DNA of 64,000 nt from the NCBI RefSeq assembly GCF_027257155.1, contig NZ_JAPWDU010000004.1, positions 124,001 to 188,000 of the forward strand, written 5' to 3'. Made by a program: the position numbers and the translations under genes. The notes under the pieces were generated by a model. It had not been told where the DNA came from. It saw nothing but the letters and a program-made list of their open reading frames with translations, and ran no database searches. This document shows, piece by piece, positions 21,593 to 60,615 of this stretch (position 1 is the first letter of the stretch; each line of letters starts with the position of its first letter). The stretch is from Cerasicoccus sp. TK19100 (GTDB lineage Bacteria > Verrucomicrobiota > Verrucomicrobiia > Opitutales > Cerasicoccaceae).

Positions 21593-24022
21593 TTATCCGC
21601 GCACTTCGTAGCCGGCCTCTTTCATCGCTTTTTGAACGGCGTCGAAGGCGGAGTTTACCTCCTTATCCTTGAGCGTGCGCTCAGGGCTACGGTAGCGAAT
21701 GCTGAAGGCCAGGCTCTTCTTGCCCTCGGGCAGACCCGTGCCCGTGTAAACATCGAACACTTCCACGGCCTCCACGCCAAAGGCGCCGGCGGTGGATTTG
21801 TCTGCGGCCTTGGCCAATGCTTTGCGAACATCTTCCGCGGGCAAGGCAGCATCGACCACCAGTGCGAGGTCCTTCTCGCTGCCCGGATAATCACTGAAGC
21901 CTTGGAAACGCGTTGCCTTGTCGGACTTCGGTTGACGCGCGGCGAGGAAAAGGATTTCGCCACCGAGCCACAGGCCGTCGACCTCCATTGCCTTGAGCAT
22001 CTGCATGTCCAACAGGCCGGCGCGGACCATCGACTGGCCCTTGAACCAGCAACCGGCACCGCCGCTCTGACCAGCTTGCCACGCGGGGTGATCCGTCGTA
22101 TCCCACTGCGGCGTCTTGAAGCCACCGAGGCCGAGCAAATTCTCAACCATGGCCTTCGCCGAATAGAAATCCGGAGCGCCGCGCTCGCGCCACTGGCGTC
22201 CTTCGCCATCCGCACGCCAGAGGAAGGCAATGCTCGCGATTTCAAAAATTTCGCCTTCGCCCCAACGGAACACGCGGCCCGTCTCGAAGAAGCGCGTTGG
22301 TGAATTGCCGCGGCTTTGGTTGAGCTGCGCAGCCTTGACCAAGCCCGGGATCAGCGATGCGCGCAGGTGGCCCATCTCCGAAGTCAGCGGATTGGCCAGT
22401 TTGAGGTTCGGGTATTGATCGCCGTATTCAAAGGCACCCAGCTGATCGCCGTCGACCAGCGTGTAGTGCGAGCACTCGGCAAAGCCATTTGAAGCCAGGA
22501 AATTGGCAGTGAGGCGATTATACTTGGCCAGTGGCGCATCGTCGCGGGTGAGGCCCGTTGCCTTAACTGCGCCTTCGGGGATCTTCGCCGTGCCGTAGAG
22601 GCGGACGAATTCTTCCACTAGGTCGATCGGGCGATCCACCTCCGGGCGGAAGCTCGGAACGGTCACTTGCCAGGCAACGCCTTCACTTTGCGATGCAGAG
22701 TCACTTTGCACGACAAAGCCCAAGCGTTTAAAAGCCGACTCGATCTCGGCGTCCTTCACGGTGAAGCCGCAGACCTGGCGCACGTAATCACCGGTGATGT
22801 CGATGGTGCGGTCGCCACGCGGCGGCTCGCCAACAACGATTGGATCGCCGACGACTTCGCCTCCGGCAACTTCGAGAATCAAATCGATCGCGCGCTTGGC
22901 GGCATACTCGACACCTGCCGGATCAACATCGCGCGTGAAGCGGTGCGAGCTGTCGGAAAAGAGATTCAGGCGGCGTGTGGTCCAACGCACGGAGCCCGGC
23001 TGGAACCACGCGCTTTCGAGCACGATATCCACCGTGTTGTCGTCGACTTCCGCATCAAGGCTGCCCATGACACCGGCCACGACCAGCGGGCGCTTGGCAT
23101 CGGCAATGACCATCATCTGCTCGCTCAGCTTACGCTCCTTTTCGTCGAGCGTGGTGATCGGCTCGCCTTCCTTGGCTTGGCGAACGATGATCTTGCCACC
23201 CTTGATTTTACCCGCGTCGAACGCGTGCAGTGGCTGGCCGGTTTCCATCAGCACGTAATTGGTAACGTCCACCACGTTGTTAATCGGGCGCTGGCCAATG
23301 GCGGTCAGTGCCTTCTTCAGCCACTCGGGGCTCTCGGCAATTTTCACGCCCTTAATGCTGCGCGCGGTGTAATACGGGCAGCCATCGGTCGTCACTTCCA
23401 CGCCGCTGATCAGCGCATTGCCCTGACCCGATGCGTCGGAAACTTCCGGCGTTTTCAAATCCTTGCCAAAGTAGGCTGCAAGCTCGCGCGCCACGCCGAT
23501 GTGGCTCAGGCAGTCGCCGCGATTAGCGGTCAGCTCCAGCTCGATGACGGTGTCGCTGTCCTTAAAAATGTCGTTCATCGGCGTGCCGATTTCCGGACGG
23601 TCGGTCAGGATCATCAGGCCGCTGTGGTCATCGCCGAGACCCAGCTCTTTGGCGGAGCACATCATGCCGTTGGACTCAACGCCGCGCAGCTTGCTCTTCT
23701 TGATCTTGAAATCGCCCGGCAGCTTCGCGCCTACCAATGCGACAGGGATGCGGTCGCCCACCTTGTAGTTCGACGCGCCGCAAACGATCTGCGTCGGCTC
23801 GGCGTCGGGGGCAAACTTCACCATGCACACGCCCAGCTTGTCCGCATTGGGGTGCTGCTCGCGGCTCAAGACTTCGCCCACGACAAGGTTGTCGATCTGG
23901 GGCATGCCCTTAGTTTCGACGGACTCCACTTCCAAGCCGATCATCGGCAGGGCCTCGCAGATTTCATCCACGGAGGCGTCGAGATCGACGTAGTTTTTCA
24001 GCCAGTTTAAAGATACTTTCAT
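21593..24022 (-). CDS. pheT: Phenylalanyl-tRNA synthetase beta subunit
   Basis: 809 residues from the ATG at 24022 (MKVSLNWLKNYVDLD), the conserved PheT start; the frame continues upstream to 24133 but that stretch runs into an inverted repeat. Domains: tRNA-binding OB fold ('VVGEVLSREQHPNADKLGVC'), B1/B5 core ('ELTANRGDCLSHIGVAREL'), B3/B4 editing, and a C-terminal anticodon-binding FDX-ACB domain ('DYPGSEKDLALVVD'). It joins PheS in the alpha2-beta2 enzyme charging tRNA-Phe. A short insertion 'QSDSASQSEG' in the B5 region is encoded by a copy of the dispersed palindrome (22685-22709). Separated from pheS by a GxxExxY gene. Confidence 0.97.
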   Translation of the reverse strand: MKVSLNWLKNYVDLDASVDEICEALPMIGLEVESVETKGMPQIDNLVVGEVLSREQHPNADKLGVCMVKFAPDAEPTQIVCGASNYKVGDRIPVALVGAKLPGDFKIKKSKLRGVESNGMMCSAKELGLGDDHSGLMILTDRPEIGTPMNDIFKDSDTVIELELTANRGDCLSHIGVARELAAYFGKDLKTPEVSDASGQGNALISGVEVTTDGCPYYTARSIKGVKIAESPEWLKKALTAIGQRPINNVVDVTNYVLMETGQPLHAFDAGKIKGGKIIVRQAKEGEPITTLDEKERKLSEQMMVIADAKRPLVVAGVMGSLDAEVDDNTVDIVLESAWFQPGSVRWTTRRLNLFSDSSHRFTRDVDPAGVEYAAKRAIDLILEVAGGEVVGDPIVVGEPPRGDRTIDITGDYVRQVCGFTVKDAEIESAFKRLGFVVQSDSASQSEGVAWQVTVPSFRPEVDRPIDLVEEFVRLYGTAKIPEGAVKATGLTRDDAPLAKYNRLTANFLASNGFAECSHYTLVDGDQLGAFEYGDQYPNLKLANPLTSEMGHLRASLIPGLVKAAQLNQSRGNSPTRFFETGRVFRWGEGEIFEIASIAFLWRADGEGRQWRERGAPDFYSAKAMVENLLGLGGFKTPQWDTTDHPAWQAGQSGGAGCWFKGQSMVRAGLLDMQMLKAMEVDGLWLGGEILFLAARQPKSDKATRFQGFSDYPGSEKDLALVVDAALPAEDVRKALAKAADKSTAGAFGVEAVEVFDVYTGTGLPEGKKSLAFSIRYRSPERTLKDKEVNSAFDAVQKAMKEAGYEVRG
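22685..22709. repeat. Palindrome copy 2 in pheT
   Basis: ACTTTGC-GAT-GCAGAGT (one arm mismatch) followed at once by another ACTTTGC half. It encodes a serine-rich stretch in the B5 domain. Confidence 0.7.
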
Positions 24023-24059
24023 GGGAAAATTGTTGGGTGCAAGAGGCAGGTGAAAATTG

Positions 24060-24525
24060 TTGAACAGAAGGCAGCAAAGAAAGCAAAGGACATCAATCTG
24101 CTGAACCAGGCAGCAGCATCCGATGAATATCATCGGTAAGTTTGACGGAATTGAAATTCATGATCAGCCCTAAGGGAACATCCAGTAACTTCATGTAGCT
24201 CATGAGTTGTGCCCTGTGGATTGGTAAAATTTTTTCAACCGCTTTTAATTCAATGAGTAGGCAGCTTTCGATTAAAACATCGTAACGCAAAGGCTCCTCG
24301 AAAGTGAGGTCTTTGTAAGAAATACGCACGGGCTGCTGAGAGTCCCAGCGAATGCCCTGTAACGTAAGCTCATGTGCAAAGCACTTTTCATAAATGGACT
24401 CAATCAAGCCAGGCCCCTTGTCGCGATGAACTTCAATGCCCGCTCCAATCGCCAGCTTGCTTAATTCATTCGCCCTTTGATATTTCGGATGCACCGCTTT
24501 GCTTTCTTTGCTACCTTCTGTTCAA
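24060..24525. mobile_element. GxxExxY gene framed by 29-bp inverted repeats
   Basis: Left arm 24060-24088 begins TTGAACAGAAGGCAGCAAAG; right arm 24497-24525 is its reverse complement with 1 mismatch in 29. Similarity extends outward another ~12 bases (AGGT...TTG). Only the GxxExxY gene lies inside. The unit sits in the pheS-pheT gap, starting ~14 bases past the pheS stop. Mobility is inferred from structure only; no transposase is present. Confidence 0.6.
24093..24494 (-). CDS. GxxExxY protein (PDDEXK_3 type)
   Basis: 133 residues from a GTG start. The family motif is 'GPGLIESIYEKCF' (G-x-x-E-x-x-Y), followed by 'EEPLRYDVLIESCLLIELKA' with the D...ExK residues of a PD-(D/E)XK nuclease-like fold, then 'MKLLDVPLGLIMNFNSVKL'. 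No activity is established for the family. It is A+T-richer than its neighbours and lies between the two halves of an essential operon, framed by inverted repeats. The right repeat directly precedes the start codon and supplies the only purine-rich stretch that could serve as ribosome binding site. Confidence 0.85.
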   Translation of the reverse strand: MHPKYQRANELSKLAIGAGIEVHRDKGPGLIESIYEKCFAHELTLQGIRWDSQQPVRISYKDLTFEEPLRYDVLIESCLLIELKAVEKILPIHRAQLMSYMKLLDVPLGLIMNFNSVKLTDDIHRMLLPGSAD

Positions 24526-24538
24526 AAACAAGTTCTAC

Positions 24539-25579
24539 CTACGCGAACTGACGCAGGAAGCGGAGGTCGTTGTTGTAGAAGTGGCGAATGTCGTCGATGC
24601 CGTGTATAATCATGGCTATGCGCTCGACGCCCATACCGAATGCGAAGCCGGTCCACTTGTTCGGGTTGATGCCGACGGCGTCGAAGACCTTGGGGTCGAC
24701 CATGCCGCAGCCGCCGAGCTCGATCCACTGGTTCGAGAGCTTGCCGAGGTTGGGGGTCATCATATCGAGCTCGAAGGACGGCTCGGTGAACGGGAAAAAG
24801 CTCGGGCGCAGGCGGACCTTGGAGCCCTTGCCAAAGATTTCCGCCACGAAGTAATCCAACACCGCCTTGAGGTCCTTGATCGTTACCTCACGGTCGACGT
24901 AAAGGCCCTCGCACTGGTGGAAGTTCGCGCTGTGCGTGGCGTCGGTGGTGTCGCGGCGGAACACGCGGCCGGGCGAGATAATGCGCAGCGGCGGCTTCTC
25001 GGCGAGCATCGTGCGGATCTGCACCGTGGAGGTGTGCGAGCGCAGAATGTAACGCTCGTCGCCGTGCTTGGTCACGTTGCCCAGCTTGGCACCCTCGGGC
25101 ATGAAAAGCGTGTCCTGCTCATCGCGGGCGGGGTGGTCCTCAGGCGTGTTCAACGCGTCAAAACAGAACCACTCGCTCTCGACCTCGGGGCCTTCGGCCA
25201 CGGTGAAGCCGATCTTGCGGAACACGTCGTCCATCAGGCGGCGGGTCTGCGTCAGCGGGTGCAGCAGGCCGGCGGTCGGGTCCGGGCTGGGCAGCGTGGG
25301 GTCGATCGGCGGGCCAATGCGGGCCGCGAGCTCGAGCTCCTCCAGCTTGGCGAGGGCCTGCTCGTAGAGGGCCTCGATCTGCACTTTATATTCGTTGATG
25401 ATCTTGCCCATGGCGGGGCGGTCTTCCTTGGGCACATCTTTCATGCCTTTGAGGATGTCCGTCAGCTTGCCTTTGGGACCAGAAATAGTGGCCTTAAACG
25501 CCTCGAAATCCGGTCGCTTGGCGATGCCGGGGATGGCGCTTTCGACTTCAGTGAGAATTGCCTGGAGTTGTTCCTTCAT
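24539..25579 (-). CDS. pheS: Phenylalanyl-tRNA synthetase alpha subunit
   Basis: 346 residues from the ATG at 25579 (MKEQLQAILTEVE); the frame is open to 25612 but the first 11 residues overlap the terminator side and look non-native. An N-terminal coiled coil is followed by the class II catalytic core: motif 2 'ILRSHTSTVQIRTM', 'CEGLYVD', 'FPFTEPS' and motif 3 'GMGVERIAM'. Catalyses Phe-tRNA formation with PheT. Lies downstream of rpmI-rplT after a terminator. Confidence 0.97.
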   Translation of the reverse strand: MKEQLQAILTEVESAIPGIAKRPDFEAFKATISGPKGKLTDILKGMKDVPKEDRPAMGKIINEYKVQIEALYEQALAKLEELELAARIGPPIDPTLPSPDPTAGLLHPLTQTRRLMDDVFRKIGFTVAEGPEVESEWFCFDALNTPEDHPARDEQDTLFMPEGAKLGNVTKHGDERYILRSHTSTVQIRTMLAEKPPLRIISPGRVFRRDTTDATHSANFHQCEGLYVDREVTIKDLKAVLDYFVAEIFGKGSKVRLRPSFFPFTEPSFELDMMTPNLGKLSNQWIELGGCGMVDPKVFDAVGINPNKWTGFAFGMGVERIAMIIHGIDDIRHFYNNDLRFLRQFA

Positions 25580-25610
25580 GAGGGTTTGCGGTTTGCGCTG
25601 ATTGCGCGGC

Positions 25611-25639
25611 AAAGAAAAAGGCGGCCATCGTTGGCCGCC
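25611..25639 (-). terminator. Terminator between rplT and pheS
   Basis: On the minus strand GGCGGCCA / TGGCCGCC pairs over a 4-base loop, then TTTTTC. It should end or attenuate the rpmI-rplT message before pheS. Confidence 0.85.
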
Positions 25640-27295: not shown

Positions 27296-27661
27296 ATGCA
27301 CTTCAGCCGGGAAGTCAATAACCTGATCGCCAATCTGCGGGGAGTCCCCGAAGACCGGGGGCGCTCGGTGCGTCGTGATGCCAAGCCTATCGACAGCATT
27401 GTCGAGGTGATCATCGAGCGTTACAAAATCGGCAAGCCGACCGCCGAGGAAATCATCGTGAAGCATTGGAAGGACATCGTTGGCGAGCAAACCGCCCACC
27501 GCGCCCGCCCGATGAAGATCGTCAACGGCAAGCAGTTGGTGATCCTCGCGTCAAACTCCGTCATCAAACAGGAGTTGCTCTTTGCCGAGCGGCAAATCCT
27601 CAAACGCATTCGCGCCCTCCCCGAATGCGGCGGCATCCGCGACGTGTCAATTAAGGGGTAG
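27296..27661 (+). CDS. dciA: DciA-like (DUF721) protein
   Basis: 121 residues. The DUF721/DciA domain is seen in 'VEVIIERYKIGKPTAEEIIV', 'HWKDIVGEQTAHRARPMKIV', then 'LVILASNSVIKQELLFAERQ'. DciA is the ancestral bacterial factor that helps load the replicative helicase DnaB in species without DnaC/DnaI. The last ~32 codons lie in a 328-bp segment that is tandemly duplicated downstream. Confidence 0.85.
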   Translation: MHFSREVNNLIANLRGVPEDRGRSVRRDAKPIDSIVEVIIERYKIGKPTAEEIIVKHWKDIVGEQTAHRARPMKIVNGKQLVILASNSVIKQELLFAERQILKRIRALPECGGIRDVSIKG

Positions 27662-27688
27662 CCGTCGTAAAAAAACGTTCGCTGGCTA

Positions 27689-27828
27689 TGGAGTGCGGCA
27701 GCCCTCTTCCGCTTTCAGCATTTTGTGGGAACGGCGGACTCCACCGAAACGCATCGTCAACTGAGCGTTTCACTGAAGCTTAGAGCGTCTTGGAAAATGC
27801 GAAAGCGCCAGAGGGCTGGCGCACTCCA
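27689..27828. repeat. MITE-like inverted repeat (TGGAGTGCGGCAGCC family), copy 1
   Basis: Left arm 27689-27724 begins TGGAGTGCGGCAGCCCTCT; right arm 27794-27828 is its imperfect reverse complement. The interior holds a GAAACGC / GCGTTTC hairpin. A second copy lies 328 bases on in the tandem duplication. No coding content. Confidence 0.75.
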
Positions 27829-27891
27829 AACTCGGATGACGGAAACCGCATTCTAATAGGTAGAAAGCACCTTCACACATTTCCCGGGAAT

Positions 27892-27989
27892 TCAAGCAGG
27901 AGTTGCTCTTTGCCGAGCGGCAAATCCTCAAGCGCATCCGCGCCCTCCCCGAATGCGGCGGCATCCGTGACGTGTCGATCAGCGGCTAG
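27892..27989 (+). pseudogene. Duplicated dciA 3' fragment
   Basis: Continues the dciA frame from KQELLFAERQ to a TAG at 27987-27989. Of about 8 base changes from the intact copy, all but one (K to S near the end) are synonymous. It has no start of its own and is presumably not translated. Confidence 0.8.
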
Positions 27990-28016
27990 CCGTCGCAAAA
28001 AAGCGTTCGCTGGCTA

Positions 28017-28156
28017 TGGAGTGCGGCAGCCCTCTGCCGCTTTCAGCATTTTGTGGGAACGGCGGACTCCACCGAAACGCATCGTCAACTGCGCGTTTCA
28101 CTGAAGCTTAGAGCGTCGTGGAAAATGCGAAAGCGCTAGAGGGCTGGCGCACTCCA
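28017..28156. repeat. MITE-like inverted repeat, copy 2
   Basis: Same element as 27689-27828, shifted by 328 bases; the arms read TGGAGTGCGGCAGCC and GGCTGGCGCACTCCA. This covers most of the gap between dciA and the di-haem protein. Confidence 0.75.
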
Positions 28157-35564: not shown

Positions 35565-35678
35565 GCGCCAAAGCGCGACAGCATCCTCGGACCAATAGAC
35601 ATCCAGACGAGCGCCTAAGATGCGACAGCATCCTCGGCCAACGGACATCCAGTCGAGCGCCAAAGGCGCGGACTCATC
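35565..35678. repeat. 47-bp direct repeats and outer arm left of transposase
   Basis: GCGACAGCATCCTCGG recurs at 35575 and 35622 (47-base period), with a degenerate third unit near 35668. Each unit carries GGACATCCAG-type and GAGCGCC words. The last part, GAGCGCCAAAGGCGCGG, is an arm shared with 36333-36354 and 60494. Confidence 0.7.
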
Positions 35679-35725
35679 CTAGCCTAGGGTCAGCAAGGAG
35701 CGAAGCGACGAAGCGCAGCCCTAGG
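35679..35725. repeat. REP-like palindrome, left of transposase
   Basis: Begins CTAGCCTAGGGTCAGC and ends GCGCAGCCCTAGG; the ends can pair. An inverted copy is at 36282-36332 and another at 60540-60589. Confidence 0.8.
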
Positions 35726-35780
35726 AAACCGTGACAACATTTAAACTTGAGCGCTGAAAGCGCGGATTCATGCTTGCTGC

Positions 35781-36234
35781 ATGCCGCAGTCACTTAGCCA
35801 GGTTATGGTGCATTTCGTCTTTTCGACTAAAAGATCGGCAACCATGGCTACCTCCTCAAATGCGCCCGCGTTTATTTGGCTACCTGGCCGCAATATCAAA
35901 CGACCTAGCTTGCCCTTGTCATCGAGTAGGCGGCACAGTTGACCATGTGCATCTCGCGGTAAGCCTTGGGCGTGAAACGACACAGAGCGATTGGATCAAA
36001 GAGGTAAAGTCCCGTTCGTCAAAATGGATTAAGCAAGAATGGCCAGAGCTAACATCGTTTGCCTGGCAGCGCGGATATGGCGCCTTTTCCATCAGCCCGA
36101 ATCACCTAACCGCATTGCTTGAATACATCGACCGTCGAGAGGAGCACCACCGCCATGAAACGTTCCAGGACGAGTATCTACGCTTGTTAGCGAAATACCA
36201 CATTGATTACAGCGAGCACTATCTCTGGGACTAA
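35781..36234 (+). pseudogene. Y1 (IS200/RAYT-like) transposase, frameshifted
   Basis: The family start MPQSLSQVMVHFVFSTK reads from the ATG at 35781, but the rest ('DRQPWLPPQMRPRLFGYLAA', 'DHVHLAVSL', 'WQRGYGAFSISPNH', 'YIDRREEHH') is in another frame. One extra A in the run at 35829-35832 explains the shift. Repaired length is ~150 residues, normal for this family, and the HUH motif (H-V-H) is intact. Y1 transposases of this kind move hairpin-ended DNA as single strands. It is framed by mirrored palindromic arms. Either the gene is dead or the shift is a sequence error; programmed slippage seems less likely. Confidence 0.8.
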
Positions 36235-36238
36235 CCGT

Positions 36239-36354
36239 TTGAAACCGCACCGTTGGCGCTCTAGATCGATCTACCTCAATTCCTAGGGCTGCGCTGCAGT
36301 CGCTTTGCTCCTTGCGCTGACCCTAGGCTAGGATGAAACCGCGCCGTTGGCGCT
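36239..36354. repeat. REP-like palindrome and arms, right of transposase
   Basis: An inner arm (36240, CCGCACCGTTGGCGCTC), an inverted REP copy (36282-36332) and an outer arm (CCGCGCCGTTGGCGCTG) mirror the left side of the transposase. Confidence 0.8.
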
Positions 36355-60428: not shown

Positions 60429-60493
60429 CCCAAATACCGGTTTCTCATTGGCGTGAATTGAGTCCTCTCCCAAGCCCAACGGACAATCATTCT

Positions 60494-60615
60494 GAGCGCC
60501 AAGGGCGCGGTCTCATATTAGCCTAGGGTCAGCACAGCACCTAGGGCTGCGCTCCAGTCGCCCTGCGACTTGCGCTGACCCTAGGCTAGTATGTGTTCGC
60601 ACCCTTGGTGCTCAT
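60494..60615. mobile_element. REPIN-like element, same arms as transposase locus
   Basis: Outer arms GAGCGCCAAGGGCGCGGTC (60494) and its imperfect complement ending GGTGCTC (60612) enclose TAGCCTAGGGTCAGC / GCTGACCCTAGGCTA and a full REP copy (60540-60589). The parts match the arms around the Y1 transposase at 35781. Confidence 0.75.

Follow-up and report, generated by a model that had tools for sequence, protein, structure and literature searches.

A GxxExxY gene framed by inverted repeats between pheS and pheT: a probable palindromic mobile element of an undescribed kind

Introduction

The junction between pheS and pheT in Cerasicoccus sp. TK19100 holds a small GxxExxY gene enclosed by long inverted repeats, which raises the question of what such a unit is and how it came to stand between two host genes. 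A sequence-only reading of the locus had inferred a minimal mobile cassette, formed by the repeat arms together with a nuclease-like protein. The question is addressed here within the window (the whole 64-kb stretch of DNA analysed), in the 5.07-Mb genome to which it belongs and in other genomes carrying GxxExxY genes.

Results

The element in the window

The analysis of the window confirmed the layout given by the sequence-only reading: the two 29-bp arms match at 28 positions, the enclosed gene belongs to the GxxExxY family, with scores above the cut-offs of both PF13366 (121.2 bits, cut-off 22) and TIGR04256 (125.3 bits, cut-off 35), and profile matches of the neighbours place the unit between pheS and pheT (Table 1). 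The reading had also stated that no transposase is present and that the upstream arm stands two bases from the GTG start. Both statements held, since PF13366 was the only Pfam domain detected in the gene, with no transposase within the element, and two bases separate the GTG (24494-24492) from the end of the upstream arm at 24497. From the two-base distance the reading had suggested that the arm may supply the ribosome binding site; the start codon is comparably near the arm in the copies of genomes G290 and G289.

When short extensions are included (24057-24088 and 24497-24528), the arms are 94% identical, and T-runs external to the window arm are also present in one sister arm family. The 29-bp arms are separated by 13 bases from the end of pheS and by 37 from the start of pheT, the latter being read at the Met at 24022, which is residue 38 of the open frame and the point where the TIGR00472 match begins. 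The best self-match period of the 5' arm was 9. Within the window, the 23-nt arm core (up to three mismatches) occurs at two sites only, and shuffled sequences give an expectation of 0.00.

Table 1. Coordinates of the element, its gene and its host neighbours, and of two further framed loci (a dot marks features without strand)
Feature	Location	Strand	Remarks
3' arm (3' of gene)	24060..24088	.	28/29 complementary to 24497-24525
5' arm (5' of gene)	24497..24525	.	Gene-strand sequence TTGAACAGAAGGTAGCAAAGAAAGCAAAG, about three purine-rich words
GxxExxY / PDDEXK_3 gene, 133 aa	24093..24494	-	GTG start; profile matches
Complete element with short arm extensions	24057..24528	.	Extended repeat
pheS, host neighbour outside the element	24539..25612	-	Profile match
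pheT, host neighbour outside the element	21593..24022	-	Profile match; start codon read from sequence
Second-type arm pair framing its gene	C7:46761-47220		
Four-helix-bundle gene in G288	L202:3040-3408		7-bp type arms

Framing repeats at GxxExxY loci

Of the 288 genomes sampled from the phylum, 162 had GxxExxY genes. In the framing test, the downstream side of a GxxExxY match was reverse-complemented and aligned with up to 280 bp from upstream of the match. The set of 168 loci, of which 164 were examinable, comprised four from the own genome, 30 from the phylum search (one per best genome), 74 on named contigs spanning many phyla and 60 hand-picked from multi-copy genomes (L043 and L210 are one and the same locus). 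The results showed a framing inverted repeat scoring at least 30 at 125 of the 164 loci and, after a shift of 400 bp, at 2 of 158 controls; the other 39 loci scored below 30. Similar proportions were obtained in the own and phylum subset (24/34 loci, 0/68 controls) and in the named-contig subset (51/73 loci, 1/187 controls). When the upstream side of one locus was paired with the downstream side of another (300 pairings), the 95th and 99th percentiles were 32 and 45, and the largest score was 107. Mispaired loci outscore shifted ones because arm types recur between loci, and thus a score of 30 alone is no proof of pairing.

Further analyses revealed a common arm layout: in each arm a word of 6-7 bp recurs about three times, usually at a spacing of 8-10 bp, and the two arms are mirror images. 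The best period of arm self-repetition was 9 bp in 66, 8 bp in 28 and 10 bp in 17 of 124 elements, and the upstream arm, read on the gene strand, was more than half purine in 108 of the 124. By a score of our own definition, a 6-mer recurred inside 91% of 110 arms and inside 18% of 330 shuffled arms.

Arm sequence and protein relatedness

Arm similarity was correlated with protein identity among 110 framed elements (Mantel rho 0.385; largest of 500 permutations, 0.144). The value was 0.381 with the GC difference removed, and the control, in which DNA 40 nt outside the element replaced the arms, gave a rho of 0.037 (n=109). The sibling test was restricted to elements whose nearest protein belongs to a different genome and is nearer than every same-genome sibling. 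In 43 of these 52 cases the arm resembled that of the nearest protein more closely, and in 9 it was closer to the mean of the same-genome siblings (p 2e-6). On these sequence comparisons, arm sequence tracks the protein and not the host genome.

Close relatives of the window protein were defined as ten named-contig loci with a match starting at residue 1 or 2 and an identity of at least 55%. The window-type arm was present in seven of them (L060, L061, L062, L065, L066, L067, and L127), in L066 on one side only, and its bearers include Geminisphaera, Schlesneria and, with one arm only, a Kiritimatiellae genome; L063 carries another arm type, and L064 and L113 have no scoring repeat. In the phylum sample, the window-type arm pattern was detected in 28 of 288 genomes, that is, in 10 of 15 having a relative at E<=1e-38 and in 18 of the 273 others (p 3e-8). 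This p value is only indicative, since the E limit was chosen after inspection of the list and the arms flanking the genes were included. Relatives lacking the window pattern can bear a variant arm, as in L336 and L337. At E<=1e-25, six genomes (G015, G157, G118, G185, G091, and G032) had either no relative or merely a distant one, and yet at least 11 arm matches, which is evidence against a strict one-to-one pairing of arm and protein.

Two of the checks proposed along with the cassette reading were whether the flanks of homologues carry inverted repeats and whether the arms vary with the protein clade, and both turned out in its favour. The inference that arms and nuclease-like protein form one unit is well supported by the framing and by the covariation of arm and protein; movement itself remains inferred.

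The GxxExxY protein

The window protein contains the signature E32..D72..E82xK84..Q96xxxY100 (numbering of window:24096-24494), which we take to be the Cas4/RecB-family type of nuclease motif. Across a set of 153 proteins, conservation is 97-100% for the E of GxxExxY, the D, the ExK, the Q and the Y, and 99-100% for the columns of D72, E82 and K84, all present in the window protein. The predicted structure (pLDDT 96.4) had its best structural match in 4ic1 (SSO0001, presumably a Cas4), with a Z of 9.1 and an rmsd of 4.5 over 102 residues, followed by a match with Z 7.8 and then mostly by restriction-endonuclease-like enzymes; Holliday-junction resolvases reached at most 6.9. Foldseek gave weak matches (best E 0.02), and no solved structure was found by sequence, the best E of the profile search being 0.44. 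The protein combines a nuclease signature with a predicted PD-(D/E)XK fold; cutting is inferred.

The motif pattern is shared with the Cas4 and RecB-family enzymes, and the match to 4ic1 is compatible with a Cas4 fold. As compared to Cas4, the window protein is shorter than the 202-residue 4ic1 chain and stands alone in an inverted-repeat cassette. Cas4 proteins have a four-cysteine iron-sulphur site, a feature not met here, as no cysteine column reached 80% in the 153 proteins. The comparison of the window gene with that of G290 (taken as C. maritimus) gave a dN of 0.048 and a dS of 0.976 (dN/dS 0.049), by which the gene is judged to be under strong purifying selection.

Signature, fold and selection would also be expected of a repair or defence nuclease that benefits the host, with the arms as recognition or self-protection marks. 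This explanation is very improbable in view of the several copies with different arms in one genome, the internally deleted copy in G289 and the other element at the G288 junction; in addition, the best PADLOC match, to Cas4, was weak (E 0.024), on which a defence-system reading was rejected. Carriage by plasmids or phages was likewise discarded: with the window protein as query (E 1e-5), relatives were rare in plasmid records (8 of 72,556) and were not found in 50,697 phage records.

Gene-less palindromes in the genome

In the whole genome, the arm core (up to three mismatches) had 25 matches, as compared to 5 for the reversed control. Gene-less palindromes with the window arm comprise six pairs of 66-163 bp, several of them nested, either inside other palindromes or enclosing them. 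The genome has four GxxExxY genes and four different framing repeats, which are the window type, CAGGAAGATCGGGAAGAACGGGAAG, a repeated CGCGGAT and a weak one scoring just 30. The second type had 32 matches, two of them at its own gene (Table 1), and none in the reversed control; beyond these arms, little was common except a T-run (24 arms, 20 loci).

The gene-less copies of the own genome (L351-L366) have near-identical arms and mostly unrelated loops. The best loop pair of each of two families scored 60 and 31 against a shuffled 99% level of 18, and one of these two high scores was due to a common nested palindrome. This combination suggests that the arms are the part that is recognised or copied; the unrelated loops are also a point against a mobile element, in so far as copying of the whole element predicts otherwise. 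Origin of the gene-less copies as plain deletion derivatives was rejected, since the loops in the window genome are mostly unrelated. The short copy in G290 retains, as judged by eye, a few bases from the beginning of the gene.

Inverted repeats with loops above 20 bp numbered 63 in an 846-kb census, some overlapping, and on a 586-kb contig 41 were observed against 2 in a Markov control; many of the census repeats belong to other palindromic families. At 27421-27964 of the window, a stretch (antisense reading MPPHSGRARMRLRICRSAKSNSCL) is present twice, adjoining a palindrome at 27801-28044.

The many other palindromic families, the eight Y1_Tnp genes of the genome and the absence of a transposase from the element itself are compatible with a passenger role, in which a tyrosine (RAYT-like) or other transposase moves the arms in trans and the GxxExxY gene is cargo. 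Such a role is quite unlikely, given that between genomes the arms follow the GxxExxY protein, and that each of the eight Y1_Tnp genes has a different, non-periodic best inverted repeat within 500 bp. The three arm motifs searched were absent from all eight Y1_Tnp loci (other arm types and transposase families lay outside the search), and trans-mobilisation by a RAYT was rejected on this ground. No cognate transposase was found elsewhere in the genome among Y1_Tnp genes, the sole family examined, and the single RVT_1 (reverse transcriptase) gene had no surrounding inverted repeat.

Turnover at pheS-pheT and at other sites

The pheS-pheT junction was visible in 20 of 30 genomes, own included. 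In the genus, some element was present at the junction in all four genomes surveyed, with differing contents. The order in G290 is pheS, a short copy (about 117 bp), a gene for a GDSL-like hydrolase (31.8 bits, slightly below the Pfam cut-off of 32.9), a full GxxExxY element whose protein is 92% identical to that of the window, and pheT. In G289, the hydrolase gene lies between an internally deleted GxxExxY copy, on the pheS side, and pheT, and a second element is lacking; in G288 the junction is occupied by a four-helix-bundle gene (PF05635, TIGR02436) with 7-bp type arms. The four genomes of a sister genus had four different palindromes at the junction, one enclosing a small unknown ORF, as judged by eye.

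That all four genus genomes carry some element at this place might suggest that the gene was fixed in the phe operon of an ancestor and that its repeats are fortuitous; the sequence-only reading had named a fixed ancestral gene among its refutations. The junction survey contradicted this explanation and leaves it next to untenable: the contents differ among the four genomes, and some junctions outside the family, in more distant relatives, are short (17 bp in L145 and 68 bp in L151).

Several arrangements were observed around these junctions. The G290 hydrolase gene is flanked by two element copies in a composite-like order (L195 and L196, G290:C6:158740-160100); as compared to G290, a single element is left at the junction in the window genome and the hydrolase gene is absent there. 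In L322 (G128:C1:2082734), the pheS-pheT junction has CACAGAG-type arms around a small ORF, unknown and membrane-like, which is possibly captured cargo. A more distant relative (L158, G301) has a tandem array of the 7-mer ACAGAAG at pheS-pheT.

A second site in two sister-genus genomes carries different GxxExxY elements between flanks that are 91% and 84% identical. These elements showed no blastn match across the gene, their proteins are 57% identical and their arm words differ. Persistent occupation with changing content may reflect preference for a target or the replacement of one element by another in place.

Turnover at the same junctions was seen in three sister species whose pheS sequences are about 90% identical, with 7.7-18 kb aligned per pair. 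Within this limited alignment, no exact insertion of an element in the style of the window arm was found; one 150-bp insertion with a tight boundary and 7-bp type arms was recognised by eye. No exact pair of empty and filled sites with a clean boundary was found, and no movement was observed. Target duplication showed no convincing excess among 124 elements: at least 4 nt were duplicated in 18 (14.4 expected), at least 5 nt in 10 (5.3 expected), at least 6 nt in 3 (1.8 expected), and at least 7 nt in 2 (0.3 expected).

A parallel layout with a four-helix-bundle gene

The framing test applied to four-helix-bundle (TIGR02436) loci of the phylum (L164-L193) revealed that 16 of 29 were framed at a score of at least 30, as compared to 0 of 87 controls. 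Of the 16 framed loci, 14 had arms with a best period of 7 bp and the other two a best period of 8 bp. GxxExxY and four-helix-bundle loci are both framed by arms, and one layout is therefore common to two unrelated families.

The part of PMC4990558 available describes the Coxiella intervening sequence as a unit of 428 nt that contains a single small ORF, has a terminal stem of 28 bp and is cut by RNase III. The arms of the window element might likewise act mainly as an RNA hairpin, comparable to the RNase III-cut 23S rRNA intervening sequences, binding the protein for autoregulation or mRNA excision, with dispersal being incidental. The position of a 29-bp stem between two operon genes agrees with this, as do the framing of the unrelated four-helix-bundle (intervening-sequence protein) family in the same style and its presence at pheS-pheT in the congener G288. 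A purely regulatory hairpin, however, needs no gene-less arm dispersal, no nesting and no conserved nuclease signature, and as the main role it is unlikely; an RNA function and a mobile element are compatible. The window element resembles the 23S rRNA intervening sequences (S23 or four-helix-bundle ORF, PF05635, TIGR02436) in having a small ORF and a terminal stem. It differs in the unrelated protein, with PF13366 only and no S23/four-helix-bundle match, in the spacing of the words and in its location between pheS and pheT instead of in a 23S rRNA gene.

Discussion

The explanation that we consider probable is a tiny palindromic mobile element, made of a small RecB/Cas4-type PD-(D/E)XK nuclease gene and of arms recognised by its protein, with binding, cutting and movement being inferred. 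Comparison among genomes, without experiment, is the basis for the unit, its word structure, its covariation, dispersal, nesting and turnover, and for the conserved nuclease signature under selection; movement is read from dispersal, nesting and turnover. According to this proposal, the nuclease would bind the arm words and cut the arm ends or an extruded cruciform, and host repair would copy the palindrome into a new intergenic site. The protein may also work in trans on gene-less palindromes.

In its manner of working the element would be like REP/RAYT with an unrelated enzyme, and there is a fair chance that it represents a new class. REPINs have conserved arms with mostly unrelated loops, a likeness to the gene-less copies described above. 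The REP/REPIN systems with RAYT, as well as the TIR-framed relatives of RAYT (TIRYT, 'TIRtrons'), share with the window element a small enzyme gene in inverted repeats and gene-less palindromes of the same family, and gene-less palindromes with the arms of the gene, as in REP/RAYT, were also found here. TIRYT and RAYT are described in PMC3733652, of which a part was available. REP/RAYT has an HUH tyrosine (Y1) transposase where the window element has a PD-(D/E)XK protein, and the window arms, unlike those of REP/RAYT, consist of about three direct words. In an unsystematic look for the REP/RAYT tag (GTAG or CGTC), GTAG was observed inside one window arm, not at its end, and was absent from the other arm. 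MITEs and small insertion sequences are similar to the window element in their terminal inverted repeats, gene-less versions and nesting; the window element differs from them in having neither a transposase nor a clear target duplication, and in the mostly unrelated loops of its gene-less copies.

Taken together, the evidence points to a tiny mobile element of a kind as yet undescribed. In the parts of the literature available, nothing linking GxxExxY with repeats was found and no function of GxxExxY was given; bioRxiv and most subscription papers lay outside the scope, and an earlier description is possible. A search for the arm words together with TIGR04256 returned nothing relevant.

We are evenly divided on a wider reading. 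It would make the window element a member of a pan-bacterial class of minimal elements, with a PD-(D/E)XK nuclease as the sole protein, three-word arms and a specificity that shifts along with all the words of the element. A parallel four-helix-bundle class with 7-bp words would stand beside it, both jointly explaining a large part of the short intergenic palindromes rich in purines that occur in Verrucomicrobiota and in other phyla. The rRNA intervening sequences would then be of the same wider kind. The link with repeats offers a function, open to testing, for a nuclease that is common but unexplained; it also offers an origin for intergenic palindromes of a frequent class, and the loci form a natural series of protein and DNA-word pairs bearing on how a small nuclease changes specificity. 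If the proposal is true, it represents a dispersal route without a tyrosine, serine or DDE transposase.

Two other repeat systems deserve mention. The Beggiatoaceae TAACTGA heptamers, which the available part of PMC4679880 describes as intergenic 7-bp direct repeats near start codons with one inverted case, are reminiscent of the 7-bp arms of the four-helix-bundle elements; the terms 'four-helix' and 'S23' are absent from the main text of that article, as far as it was available (GxxExxY was outside that look). The window itself contains, at 35656-36354, a known kind of the same layout, in which a Y1_Tnp (RAYT-like) match at 35821-36135 is framed by 39-bp inverted repeats, and palindromes resembling these repeats occur without a gene at 60493-60614 of the window and at C4:219095-219339.
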